64,000 nucleotides of DNA from Zoogloea oleivorans (lineage in GTDB: Bacteria; Pseudomonadota; Gammaproteobacteria; Burkholderiales; Rhodocyclaceae): NCBI RefSeq assembly GCF_008107625.1, contig NZ_SDKK01000009.1, positions 105,591 to 169,590 on the forward strand. Reading direction: 5' to 3'. The first letter of the stretch is position 1. Every line of letters starts with the position of its first letter. Shown piece by piece: positions 40,590 to 61,165 of this stretch. The notes beneath the pieces are model-generated. The model worked only from the letters and a program-made list of their open reading frames with translations. It had not been told where the DNA came from and made no database searches. A program made the translations under genes and the position numbers.

Positions 40590-40729
40590 GATTGGCGGGT
40601 GGTTGTGTTTCGACAGGAGAAGGCGCGCCTGTTAGCGTTTTCTGGCGCTGCCCCGACCATTGGCGGGGCTGTTGGACTCGCGCGCAGGGAGGTCCAGCCA
40701 ATCGAGCATTGTACCCCTCCGCAGTAGAC

Positions 40730-40771
40730 TTATCCACAGCTTCCAGCGCCTGCCAGCAGGGCTGTGGATGA
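40730..40771. promoter_or_regulatory. DnaA-box pair in the dnaA-rpmH gap
   Basis: TTATCCACA (perfect consensus) at 40730-40738 and TGTGGATGA at 40763-40771, which on the other strand reads TCATCCACA, one mismatch. They face each other about 25 bases apart, roughly 140-180 bases upstream of the dnaA start. They may serve dnaA autoregulation or form part of the origin. The surrounding DNA is not AT-rich, which weighs against an unwinding element here. Confidence 0.75.
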
Positions 40772-40823
40772 CTGCCCGGGCATGCCGCTCATGCAGCACT
40801 TGCCTCCTGGACGTGAAACGTGC

Positions 40824-40850
40824 TTGACAAACAGGGGGTTAACGTATGAA
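40824..40850 (+). promoter_or_regulatory. putative promoter of rpmH-rnpA
   Basis: TTGACA at 40824-40829 matches the -35 consensus. TATGAA at 40845-40850 is a possible -10 with 15-base spacing, slightly short. The leader to ATG 40886 is about 30 bases. A sigma-70 promoter at this place upstream of rpmH is expected in proteobacteria. Confidence 0.5.
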
Positions 40851-40885
40851 ATTACGCGTTTGACTCAACTTTTCGGGCACGAAAA

Positions 40886-47482: not shown

Positions 47483-47498
47483 TGTTTCACGTGAAACA
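47483..47498. other. parS centromere site 1
   Basis: TGTTTCACGTGAAACA, a perfect 16-bp palindrome that fully matches the ParB-binding consensus TGTTNCACGTGAAACA. It lies in the 29-base gap between the sirtuin stop and the TSUP permease start, about 6.9 kb from dnaA. Neither parA nor parB is in the window. Confidence 0.93.
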
Positions 47499-47504
47499 CT
47501 GCTG

Positions 47505-48269
47505 ATGGATTTGCCTTTGTTGCTGCTTGCGCTCGGCGCTTTTTGTGCCGGCCTGGTCGACGCCGTGGTGGGTGGTGGCGGTCTCATTCAGATACCGATG
47601 CTGTTTTCGGCCTACCCTCAGGCGTTGCCGGCAACCCTCTTTGGCACCAACAAGCTGGCCAGTGTTTTTGGGACCACCAGTGCTGCCATTCAGTATGGAC
47701 GACGTCTGGCAATTCCGTGGCGGGCAGCAGCTCCCGCCGCAGGTACCGCTGCGCTGGGTTCGTGGCTCGGGGCGCAAGCTGTTGTTTTATTTCCGCCCGC
47801 TGCGCTGCGCCCGTTGATTCTGATGCTGCTGATTTTGGTCGCCATCTACACGTTCGTACGCAAGGATTTTGGGGTCATTCACCAGCGCCTCAGTGACCCC
47901 TCCCGCGAGTTGCGTCTGGCGATCCTGATTGGTGCGCTGATCGGCTTTTACGACGGCTTCTTCGGCCCCGGGACCGGCAGCTTTCTGATCTTTCTGTTTA
48001 TCCGCTTTCTTGGCATGGATTTCCTGCACGCCTCCGTGTCAGCCAAGATCGTCAACGTGAGCACCAATCTTGCGGCCCTTGCTGTCTTCGTATTCCATGG
48101 CCAGGTGTTGTGGCAGGTTGCTGCGCTGATGGCTTGCTGCAACCTGCTGGGCTCGCGCGTCGGGGCCGCCCTCGCCCTGCGTCACGGCGCGGTTTTTATC
48201 CGCAAGGCTTTCCTTGTGGTCGTGGTGGTGCTGATCTTGTGCTTCAGTGTCGACACTTTTTTGTATTGA
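47505..48269 (+). CDS. TSUP-family (TauE/SafE) membrane permease
   Basis: Inner-membrane permease (254 aa, about eight helices) of the sulfite exporter TauE/SafE family, transporting sulfur-containing anions or similar small molecules. The first repeat has the FCAGLVDAVVGGGGLIQIP signature and the second repeat GFYDGFFGPGTGSFLIF. ATG 47505 follows the parS site by six bases. No ribosome site of normal strength is apparent because the parS palindrome occupies its place. The downstream gene starts 15 bases after its stop, overlapping a second parS site. Confidence 0.92.
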   Translation: MDLPLLLLALGAFCAGLVDAVVGGGGLIQIPMLFSAYPQALPATLFGTNKLASVFGTTSAAIQYGRRLAIPWRAAAPAAGTAALGSWLGAQAVVLFPPAALRPLILMLLILVAIYTFVRKDFGVIHQRLSDPSRELRLAILIGALIGFYDGFFGPGTGSFLIFLFIRFLGMDFLHASVSAKIVNVSTNLAALAVFVFHGQVLWQVAALMACCNLLGSRVGAALALRHGAVFIRKAFLVVVVVLILCFSVDTFLY

Positions 48270-57471: not shown

Positions 57472-58545
57472 GTGAGCCGTCCGAAGAACGACACCTTCCT
57501 GCGCGCGTTGCTGCGCCAGCCCACCGACTACACCCCGATCTGGCTGATGCGCCAGGCCGGCCGCTACCTGCCCGAATACCGCGAGACGCGCAAACGCGCC
57601 GGCAGCTTCCTCGACCTGTGCAAGAACCCCGGCCTGGCCTGCGAGGTCACTCTGCAGCCCCTGGCCCGCTACAACCTCGACGCCGCCATCCTGTTCTCCG
57701 ACATCCTTACCGTGCCGGACGCCATGGGCCTTGGCCTGTACTTCGCCGAAGGTGAAGGCCCGAAGTTCGAACGCCCGCTGAAGGAAGAGTGGGAAATTCG
57801 CAATCTGGCCGTGCCCGATCCCCACCTCGAACTGGGCTACGTGATGGACGCCGTCGCCGAGATCCGTCGTGCGCTCGACAATTCCGTGCCGCTGATCGGC
57901 TTCTCCGGCAGCCCGTGGACCCTCGCCTGCTACATGGTCGAAGGCGGCGGCTCGGACGACTACCGCAAGGTCAAGGGTCTGCTCTACAGTCGCCCGGACC
58001 TGATGCATCACATCCTCGACGTAACCGCCCAGTCCGTCATCGCCTACCTCAACGCGCAGATCGAAGCCGGTGCCCAGGCTGTCATGATCTTCGACTCCTG
58101 GGGCGGTGTGCTGGCCCATGATGCTTACCACGAGTTCTCGCTGGCCTACATCCGCAAGGTAGTAGCCGGCCTGACCCGCGAGAAGGACGGCGAGAAGATC
58201 CCTGCCATCGTGTTTACCAAGGGTGGCGGCCTGTGGCTGGCCGATATTGCCGACTGCGGTGCCGATGCCGTCGGCCTCGACTGGACCGTGGATATCGGTG
58301 CCGCCCGTCGTCTGGTGGGCGACCGCGTTGCCCTGCAGGGCAACCTGGATCCGTCGGTGCTGTTTGGCAGCCCGGAAGCCGTTGCAGCCAAAGCGAAGAA
58401 GGTGCTGGACTCCTACGGCCCCCACGCCGGCCATGTTTTCAACCTCGGGCACGGCATTTCCCAGTTCTCGCCGCCGGAAAACGTCACAGTGCTGGTCAAT
58501 ACTGTCCACGAATACAGCTGCGAGCTGAAGACGCAGTCGGTCTGA
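57472..58545 (+). CDS. hemE: uroporphyrinogen decarboxylase
   Basis: Haem-biosynthesis enzyme (357 aa) converting uroporphyrinogen III to coproporphyrinogen III. The N-terminal signature [34 protein letters not shown] with the catalytic Asp, and [16 protein letters not shown] are all present. GTG 57472 is the start, with GAGGA upstream. A strong terminator follows. The gene borders an AT-rich gap containing DnaA boxes; in Caulobacter and related alphaproteobacteria the chromosomal origin also lies beside hemE. Confidence 0.97.
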
Positions 58546-58639: not shown

Positions 58640-58870
58640 GCACTAAATTTTCTTTAAAGGGCTTGACTTGTGCACAGCGCCACGGATTTTGTCAGTTTTG
58701 TTACCAAAATCCGGGGCAGAATTTTGCATTCCTCCAAGCTGCTGTTTTTAAACGAAATATTATTTAATCGGGATTTTGGCAAGATAGGAAAAAGGCTTAC
58801 AAAAGGGGCGCTTAGGGAGACTTTACCCAGTTTTCCCACAAAGTTATCCACAGGCTTTGTGGACAAGGAA
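58640..58870. other. AT-rich gap with DnaA-box cluster (candidate origin or DnaA-controlled site)
   Basis: Part of the 439-base hemE-priA gap. Counting bases, 58681-58800 is about 37% GC and 58741-58800 about 32%, far below the flanking genes. At its right end TTATCCACA (58844-58852, perfect DnaA box) faces TGTGGACAA (58858-58866; TTGTCCACA on the other strand, one mismatch), five bases apart. Weaker matches are TTGTGCACA at 58668-58676 and TTTCCCACA at 58832-58840. An AT-rich unwinding-type stretch next to DnaA boxes is the layout of a bacterial oriC. Regulation of priA by DnaA is the alternative. No coding frame here is convincing. Confidence 0.6.
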
Positions 58871-58984: not shown

Positions 58985-61165
58985 ATGAGCACTGCCATTG
59001 TCCGCGTCGCGCTTCCCATACCGCTGCCGCAATCCTTTGATTACACGGCAGAAAACGTTTCCGCCGGGGATCTCGGCCGGTGCGTGCGGGTGCCTTTCGG
59101 GCGTGGCGAGAAAACCGGCCTGATCGTCGCCCTGCCCGATTGTGCCGATCTGCCTGTGGACAGACTCAAGCCGGTCATCGCCATCCAGCGCGAAGCACCG
59201 GCGCTGCCCGCCGACTGGCTGGCCATGGTCGAATTCACTGCCCGCTACTACCAGCACCCGCTGGGCGAAGTCGTCGCCATGGCGCTGCCGCCGCGCCTGC
59301 GCAAGGCCGATGCCGTAGCCGGCGCCGAAGCCGACCCGCTGCTCGACCTGACCGATGCTGGCCGCGACGCCCTCGCCGCCAGCAAACGCGAAAGCCGCGC
59401 GCTGGCCCTGCTGCGTCGCCTCGCCGAAGGTGGGCCGTGCCGGCGCTCCCTGTTGCGCAATGAGGACGGCGCCAACCCCGCCGTCGCCGATGCGCTCAAA
59501 CGTGGCTGGATCGCCCCCTGCATGGCTGCCGAACCGGCCGCCATGGCCGGCGCCCCCACGCTCACCGACGAGCAGCAGGCCGCCGTCGAAATCATCGGTG
59601 CCGAGGCCGGCAAGTTCCAGCCCTTCCTGCTGGCTGGCGTCACCGGCAGTGGCAAGACCGAGGTCTACCTGCGCCTCGTCGCCCAGGCCATCGCCCGCGG
59701 TGAGCAGGCCCTGATGCTGGTCCCCGAAATCGCCCTCACGCCCCAACTCGAAACCCGGGTAGCCAACCGCTTCCCGGCCGCCCGGGTGGTCAGCCTGCAT
59801 TCGGCACTCGGCGAGGCGGCCCGCTCGCAGGGCTTTGTGCAGGCCATGGAAGGCCGCGCCGAGATTGTTCTTGGCACGCGCCTGTCGGTATTCACGCCGC
59901 TGCCCCGTCTCGGCCTGATCGTCGTCGATGAAGAGCACGACGCCAGCTACAAGCAGCACGAGGGCGTGCGCTACAACGCCCGCGATCTGGCCATCTGGCG
60001 TGCCCGCCAGCGCGGCGTGCCGATCGTCCTCGGCTCGGCCACCCCGTCCCTCGAAAGCTGGCACGCCGCCGACACCGGCCGCTACCGCCGGGTCGAGCTG
60101 GCCAACCGGGCGGTGGCCATCACGCTGCCCAGGGTGCGGCCGGTGGATGTGCGCCGCGAGAAACTGCAGCACGGCGTCTCCGAGCACCTCCTGCGGGCCA
60201 TCGAGGCCCGCCTGCAGCGCGGCGAGCAGAGCCTAGTCTTCCTCAACCGGCGAGGCTATGCCCCGGTGCTGTCGTGCCCGTCCTGCGGCTGGGTCAGCCG
60301 CTGCCCGCACTGCACCGCCAACATGGTGCTGCACTTGGCCGACAAACGCCTGCGCTGCCACCATTGCAGCTTCGACGCTGGCATTCCCCTCGCCTGCCCC
60401 GATTGCGGTGACCAGGACATCCAGCCCTTCGGACGCGGCACCCAGCGCCTCGAAGAAACCCTCGGCGAACGCTTCCCCGACGCCCGCGTGCTGCGCGTGG
60501 ACCGGGACGCCGCGCGGACGCGCAGCCAGTGGGAAGCCCTGCTCGACAAGATCGGCAAGGGCGAGGCCGACATCCTGGTCGGCACCCAGATGATGGCCAA
60601 GGGCCACGACTTCCCCCGGCTCACCTTCGTCGGTGTGCTTAACGCCGATTCATCGCTGTTTGCCGCCGACTTCCGTGCGCCGGAACGACTGTTCCAGCAA
60701 TTGATGCAGGTAGGTGGCCGGGCCGGGCGCGGCGAGCTGCCCGGCGAGGTGATGGTGCAAACCCAGTACCCCGATCATCCCCTCTACAAGTGCCTGGAAA
60801 AGCACGATTTCGCCCGCTACGCCGCCCTCCAGCTGGAGGAACGCAAGCAGGCCCGCTTTCCGCCCTACGCTGCCAACGCCCTGCTGTGCGCCAATGCGCC
60901 CGAAGTGGCCACCTCAATCGCCTGGCTGAAGGACGCCCGCGCCGCCGCCATGCCCCTCGCCCAGGCCTACGGCGTGCAGGTTTTTGACCCGGTACCGATG
61001 CGCATGGTCCGCCTGGCGCGCCGGGAGCGCGCCCAGCTTCTTGTCGAAGCCCCGGCCCGCCCGGCCCTGCAGGCTTTCCTCACCGAATGGAGTCGCCACC
61101 TGTGGGCCCTCAAGCCCCCGCGGGAGCTGCGCTGGCACCTGGACGTGGATCCGGCAGAGGTTTGA
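58985..61165 (+). CDS. priA: primosomal replication restart helicase PriA
   Basis: Superfamily 2 helicase (726 aa) that reloads replisomes at stalled forks. An N-terminal 3'-DNA-binding domain covers about residues 1-105. Walker A is AGVTGSGKTEVYL and Walker B VVDEEHDASYKQ. The eight-cysteine zinc module starts CPSCGWVSRCPHC and continues RCHHC and ACPDCGDQD; helicase motif V/VI is near QVGGRAGRG. Length is family-normal. It starts 439 bases after hemE beyond the AT-rich DnaA-box region. Its 3' end overlaps a convergent PEP-CTERM gene by 56 bases. Confidence 0.97.
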   Translation: MSTAIVRVALPIPLPQSFDYTAENVSAGDLGRCVRVPFGRGEKTGLIVALPDCADLPVDRLKPVIAIQREAPALPADWLAMVEFTARYYQHPLGEVVAMALPPRLRKADAVAGAEADPLLDLTDAGRDALAASKRESRALALLRRLAEGGPCRRSLLRNEDGANPAVADALKRGWIAPCMAAEPAAMAGAPTLTDEQQAAVEIIGAEAGKFQPFLLAGVTGSGKTEVYLRLVAQAIARGEQALMLVPEIALTPQLETRVANRFPAARVVSLHSALGEAARSQGFVQAMEGRAEIVLGTRLSVFTPLPRLGLIVVDEEHDASYKQHEGVRYNARDLAIWRARQRGVPIVLGSATPSLESWHAADTGRYRRVELANRAVAITLPRVRPVDVRREKLQHGVSEHLLRAIEARLQRGEQSLVFLNRRGYAPVLSCPSCGWVSRCPHCTANMVLHLADKRLRCHHCSFDAGIPLACPDCGDQDIQPFGRGTQRLEETLGERFPDARVLRVDRDAARTRSQWEALLDKIGKGEADILVGTQMMAKGHDFPRLTFVGVLNADSSLFAADFRAPERLFQQLMQVGGRAGRGELPGEVMVQTQYPDHPLYKCLEKHDFARYAALQLEERKQARFPPYAANALLCANAPEVATSIAWLKDARAAAMPLAQAYGVQVFDPVPMRMVRLARRERAQLLVEAPARPALQAFLTEWSRHLWALKPPRELRWHLDVDPAEV

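Follow-up and report, generated by a model that had tools for sequence, protein, structure and literature searches.

Between hemE and priA in this genome, 18 kb from the gap between dnaA and rpmH, lies a short AT-rich stretch that bears DnaA boxes. Is this where the chromosome begins its replication, as the original prediction held possible, or is it a DnaA-binding platform of another kind? We investigated this in a window of 64,000 nucleotides, the whole stretch of DNA analysed here (positions 105591-169590 of contig C40 in a genome of 5.68 Mb and 107 contigs), and in related genomes. The hemE-priA gap is probably a DnaA-reactivating locus of the DARS2 type and not oriC, a function predicted from comparison of sequences.

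The AT-rich, box-bearing stretch is real and conserved. Overall, the GC content of the window is 0.643, and by base count it falls to 0.317 across 58741-58800. This agrees with the island of 32% GC that had been claimed, which lies within the most AT-rich part of the window; the 60, 100 and 200 bp windows of lowest GC content in the 64 kb start at 58746, 58686 and 58636, respectively (5 bp steps). The neighbours named by the original prediction, hemE, priA and dnaA, are confirmed by NCBIfam (Table 1). Elsewhere in the window two parS sites, at 47484 and 48277, flank a gene (47505-48269) that has a weak match, below the curated cut-off, to an NCBIfam family of unnamed function and that we take to be TauE-like. 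Methyltransferase-like and sirtuin-like genes, again below curated cut-offs, are also present in the parS stretch.

Table 1. Features of the hemE-priA element and of the dnaA-rpmH gap (window positions; distances are relative to box II)
Feature	Sequence	Position	Strand	Remarks
hemE (uroporphyrinogen decarboxylase), upstream neighbour		57472..58545	+	NCBIfam TIGR01464
Distal DnaA box A	TTGTGCACA	58668..58676	+	176 bp before box II; preceded by GCTTGAC
IHF-type site	AAACAGCAGCTTG	58735..58747	-	8/9 consensus positions; 109 bp before box II
AT-rich stretch		58746..58805	.	28% GC, the minimum among 60 bp windows of the 64 kb
DnaA box III	TTTCCCACA	58832..58840	+	8/9; start 12 bp before box II
DnaA box II	TTATCCACA	58844..58852	+	9/9
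DnaA box I	TTGTCCACA	58858..58866	-	8/9; inverted; start 14 bp after box II
priA (primosomal protein N'), downstream neighbour		58985..61165	+	NCBIfam NF004067 and TIGR00595
dnaA-rpmH gap, likelier oriC		40590..40885	.	TTATCCACA at 40730; AT-rich end near rpmH

The inverted pair formed by boxes II and I, five bases apart, was found as first described, as were two weaker boxes nearby, distal box A and box III, each of which matches TTWTNCACA at 8 of 9 positions. With up to three mismatches allowed, TTATCCACA-N5-TGTGGACAA occurs at a single place in the window, which yields two rows for its two strands; shuffled controls gave a mean of 0.02 and two rows in none of 100 shuffles. It is unlikely that so close an inverted pair arose at hemE-priA by chance. 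Together with box III the pair makes a triple, in which two boxes run in the same direction and the third is inverted. Triples were scored as the summed matches of boxes III, II and I (27 possible) with starts at -12, 0 and +14. The hemE-priA triple of the window scores 25/27, and in 2000 base shuffles of the gap the maximum was 21, reached in three. The dnaA-rpmH gap had been credited with a similar box pair. Its two boxes, the one given in Table 1 and TGTGGATGA at 40763, have starts 33 bp apart and do not form a close pair, and its best triple score is 16/27.

How does this compare with the DnaA-binding sites of E. coli? The best triple scores there are 25 in the DARS1 gap and 24 in the DARS2 gap; the oriC region, with 18, and the datA region, with 21, were considered as alternative matches and rejected, both being below the 25 of the window. 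The position of datA, not annotated in the record used, is the one we take it to have. A further triple of DARS geometry, scoring 22/27, is found in the ygdT-mutH gap of E. coli K-12, on the mutH side of DARS2 (about 1952-1986 in stretch L284), and outscores both the datA region and oriC. The DARS2 core was located through the deletion primers given in the part of PMC4585315 used here. In the passages of PMC5742627 consulted, DARS are defined by three boxes, equally spaced in DARS1 and DARS2, with box I opposite to boxes II and III; the window has these three boxes at -12, 0 and +14, with the same 25/27 as DARS1. A datA-like element, which with IHF would drive the hydrolysis of ATP-DnaA and not the release of ADP, is very improbable here. 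The same passages give datA, too, DnaA boxes and one IHF site (PMC5742627), but the best triple of its region has a box I of 5/9, against the totals of 24-25 in DARS1, DARS2 and the window.

The original prediction had proposed to compare the gap across relatives, and in this comparison the boxes proved to be kept. HemE was matched in 37 genomes of a first set of 40, which returned 30 loci, and in all of 40 further genomes (two of them, G027 and G030, repeats), which added 28 new loci; within the genus, hemE had no match in 3 of 23 genomes, and dnaA none in 3 of the 18 searched. Among the resulting 58 stretches downstream of hemE, a triple, counted at a score of at least 22/27, is present at 18 of 20 loci of the genus itself and at 25 of 38 others, the remaining 13 of the 38 scoring below 22. 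On the opposite strand of the same 58 stretches a score of 22 was reached in one. These counts leave out L164, which is the same place as L179, and include L013, where 220 bp were available after hemE.

The spacing is conserved along with the boxes. For 43 single-anchor loci downstream of hemE (the average leaves out six loci that lack an anchor and nine that have more than one), the mean match at -12 on the plus strand and +14 on the minus strand is 7.56 and 6.95 of 9, against a background of 3.20 (sd 0.85) over offsets -60 to +59 on both strands; the 24 of these loci that lie outside the genus give 7.46 and 6.25. When 441 three-box geometries were counted in a 2.23 Mb sample of stretches, which takes in the own stretches of four elements, the geometry (12,14) was the commonest with five matches, all of them hemE-side elements; the mean over geometries was 0.12 and the runner-up had three. 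Further afield, TTATCCACA-N5-TGTGG is found in 228 of 299 genomes of the order (reversed control: 4 among the matches listed) and the core pattern, at no more than one mismatch, in 200 of 235 genomes of the class (reversed control: 1 among the matches listed). This class-wide reach is a result for the pattern; a DARS function at all of these sites is a prediction from it. Four genomes of family f8 (L031, L179, L180 and L184) carry two copies of the triple per hemE-side gap, 290-465 bp apart and each scoring at least 20/27.

Three further features accompany the core. A distal box of at least 8/9 is found between -195 and -171 at 18/18 loci of the genus and 23/25 other loci having the triple, mostly at a distance of 175-179 or 185-191 bp, with about one helical turn between the two groups. 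A minus-strand IHF-type site of at least 8/9 lies at -113 to -106 in 12 of the 18 triple-bearing loci of the genus, the other six having no 8/9 site at that distance, and in 23 of the 25 others. The site is common near -109 to hemE-side, exbB-side and other cores: with cores too near a stretch end left out, it is present at -112 to -107 in 53 of 76 named-record cores among the matches listed and in 17 of 28 class cores, and at a control distance in 0/76 and 0/28. Thirdly, a 6/6 Fis consensus between the IHF site and the core, at -77 to -79, is found at 16 of 25 other hemE-side loci and at 1 of 18 in the genus; the best match anywhere in the scan of the window has 5/6 positions, so that a full consensus is absent there. 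A 6/6 Fis consensus at -77 to -79 also occurs in 38 of 77 named cores among the matches listed. A himA-family IHF gene and an Hda gene were both found above cut-off.

Could the hemE-priA gap still serve this genome as its oriC, or as an additional active origin? The AT-rich stretch, the perfect DnaA box and the IHF-type site are all like oriC, and in the part of PMC4403523 drawn upon DoriC places a hemE-side oriC in Ralstonia pickettii 12D, 291 kb from the dnaA-side one. Yet the triple is missing from the oriC region of E. coli, and dnaA, rpmH and yidC are found in none of 200 core-bearing stretches (30, 22, 118 and 30 loci among the matches listed, with some overlap; stretches of 3-8 kb, some truncated where the contig stops). 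A second copy of the core lies elsewhere in the same genome, and GC skew argues against an origin at the element, as follows. Altogether, an origin in this gap is quite improbable.

The skew was read in relatives where element and dnaA lie far apart. In four of them, assembled into at most two contigs, the pair directly follows hemE and dnaA lies over 1 Mb away (G237, G223, G215 and G199); ten stretches of 20 kb were sampled from each. The single-contig genome G027, which has the triple and lacks the exact pair, was sampled at 20 places. Raw GC skew keeps its sign across the element in each of the five genomes (left/right: -0.035/-0.034 in G237, -0.034/-0.036 in G223, +0.037/+0.038 in G215 and +0.028/+0.013 in G199). 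An origin-type change near dnaA is clear in G237, where raw GC, fourfold GC and fourfold TA skew, negative at 2.68 Mb, have all turned positive by 2.78 Mb (dnaA at 2.730 Mb, element at 1.577). It is coarse in G223, where raw GC and fourfold TA skew change between 2.32 and 2.60 Mb (dnaA at 2.457, element at 1.266) and fourfold GC skew shows no change near dnaA, and in G215, where raw GC skew changes between 0.08 and 0.50 Mb (dnaA at 0, the record start, element at 1.847) and fourfold TA skew elsewhere, at 3.32-3.90 Mb. In G199 the skew is weak; in G027 it changes at 1.52-1.80 Mb, neither at dnaA (1.281 Mb) nor at hemE (0.143 Mb); in G030, where 91 kb separate element and dnaA, it is ambiguous. 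Overall, the skew speaks firmly against replication starting at the element in these relatives, and with only moderate firmness for a start at dnaA. That the element is the oriC of the genus, as its conservation had suggested, was rejected since there is no skew change at the element in the far-element relatives.

Within the window the skew is less informative. In its contig and in G006, as in the genus generally, the two gaps are about 18 kb apart and the skew samples too coarse to separate them. Raw window skew was dropped as a test: the cumulative curve peaks near 41 kb because fourfold sites of the coding strands are rich in C. From about 35000 to 64000 the raw GC skew is opposite to gene direction, and this same C-richness makes a plain cumulative skew misleading there. 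The oriC of this genome presumably lies at dnaA-rpmH, where the most AT-rich 60 bp have 38-40% GC; a perfect box precedes dnaA at 15/15 loci of the genus that hold the dnaA start. In the original prediction, then, a DnaA-binding platform at hemE-priA fits well, with binding predicted, and a working oriC fits poorly, given the same-sign skew of five relatives and boxes that are DARS-like and not oriC-like.

The second copy of the core is in the exbB-xseA gap (contig C47, 82163-82199 of the same genome, G000; about 1489-1537 in stretch L276) and has a 9/9 IHF-type site at -110. NCBIfam confirms xseA; the exbB gene is TolQ/ExbB-like, below cut-offs. A third, weaker triple-like match is found in the genome at C66, 3939-3975 (L289, L291), and the one downstream open reading frame examined has no Pfam match at 1e-8. 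The sites recur in other genomes. Among the matches listed, 30 loci of the order have exbB and/or xseA beside the core in 15, hemE-priA in one and neither in 14, while 118 named-record loci have hemE and/or priA in 65, exbB and/or xseA in 11 and neither in 42; these last are shares and not frequencies, because the named set was picked with a pattern that resembles the core in the window, and it contains records of the same genus. In 30 loci of the class the corresponding numbers are 11, 1 and 18. Many Acinetobacter are among the 28 loci with neither pair in the 80 named loci listed, and one Acinetobacter core (L302) adjoins ttcA. Single loci have the core beside ttcA, xerD, proS and cysK.

These neighbourhoods bear on another reading, in which DnaA bound in the gap controls the transcription of priA (or hemE), or is simply titrated there, with no nucleotide exchange. 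The core ends 118 bp before priA, counted from box I to the priA start, and the hemE and/or priA genes share its stretch in the 65 named and 11 class loci given above. However, the core is also found by exbB and/or xseA in the order, the named records and the class, and by other genes at the four single loci, and the second copy is oriented the other way relative to xseA; nor is the exact I-II-III geometry obviously needed for titration or repression. We consider this reading unlikely.

The anatomy of the element fits the E. coli DARS2 scheme with IHF, with binding and activity at hemE-priA being predictions. In E. coli, according to the excerpts used (PMC8682772, PMC4245941, PMC5742627), ADP-DnaA molecules on boxes I and II face each other head to head; they lose their ADP, and the apo-DnaA takes up ATP again. 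At hemE-priA, likewise, boxes I and II would be occupied by ADP-DnaA in a head-to-head arrangement, with box III alongside, and IHF would bend the AT-rich arm at its site (58735-58747). ADP would then be released and apo-DnaA would rebind ATP, and the raised level of ATP-DnaA would promote initiation at an oriC in the dnaA-rpmH gap. We infer the binding of DnaA and IHF, the release of ADP, an influence on timing and any role for the distal box from this likeness. Several observations count against a DARS2 reading: the AT-rich arm is also like an origin unwinding element, the element is often just upstream of priA, which is also compatible with local gene control, and DARS2 needs Fis, yet few loci of the genus have its consensus (one of 18). 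The mismatch in the IHF-type site of the window, the six triple-bearing loci of the genus with no such site at that distance, the 13 loci outside the genus with low triple scores and the mixed positions of skew change weigh on the same side.

DARS itself is a kind of site already known. What appears to be new is where the element lies, that a second site recurs, how widely the core pattern extends across the class, and that a hemE-side origin is read in another way; among the literature matches listed, going by titles and abstract starts, neither hemE-priA nor exbB-xseA was the subject of a DARS paper. A wider reading, which we hold tentatively and at somewhat less than even chances, is that DARS is an old system of the whole class (gamma- and betaproteobacteria), often with about two sites per genome and the one before priA most widespread, that DARS1 and DARS2 of E. 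coli are relocated descendants, and that hemE-side 'second origins' in Betaproteobacteria are DARS mistaken for oriC. If the DARS reading of the element is right, a type of origin prediction would be corrected, boxes at -12, 0 and +14 with an IHF-type site near -109 would give a simple signature for DnaA-recycling sites, and the DnaA cycle could be tested far from E. coli. The DARS-like element hints that this mode of recharging DnaA is widespread.

Compared with known systems, the element is most like E. coli DARS2. Both have core starts of -12, 0 and +14 with box I inverted, an IHF-type site on the minus strand roughly 100 bp ahead of box II (-109 in the window, -99 in DARS2), an AT-rich arm and a further DnaA box near -190. 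An IHF site at a set distance marks the DARS2 type, and the window has one as a consensus match (8/9 at -109). DARS2 has two equal best IHF-type sites of 8/9, one on the minus strand at -99 and one on the plus strand at -83, with the same 3 bp between them as in the published IBS1-2, whereas the site of the window is 10 bp further from the core, with one mismatch to the consensus. In the passages of PMC4245941 used, moving the IHF sites of DARS2 by 10 bp from the core leaves moderate activity, and by 5 bp only partial activity. The distal box differs as well, at -176 against -197 and in opposite orientation; boxes IV-VI of DARS2 are dispensable in the same passages (PMC4245941), so the distal box may mean little. 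Both IHF and Fis are required at DARS2 according to parts of PMC8682772, PMC4245941 and PMC5742627, whereas the full Fis consensus is absent from the window. Finally, DARS2 is in the rppH-ygdT gap before mutH and the sites here are at hemE-priA and exbB-xseA; not being beside mutH, the element is not the positional counterpart of DARS2, by the position criterion in the part of PMC4245941 used.

DARS1 shares the core geometry and its score with the window, but lies at bioD-uvrB and has no IHF-type site above 7/9 within the scanned -260 to +60. AT-rich DNA, a perfect TTATCCACA and an IHF site are found in E. coli oriC (features as given in passages of PMC4245941), which differs in having no triple geometry, and the element, unlike an oriC, is away from the skew change in five genomes. 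The hemE-side 'oriC' of R. pickettii 12D, a computational prediction as presented in part of PMC4403523, likewise has DnaA boxes beside hemE in a betaproteobacterium. It may be the same thing as the element of the window.
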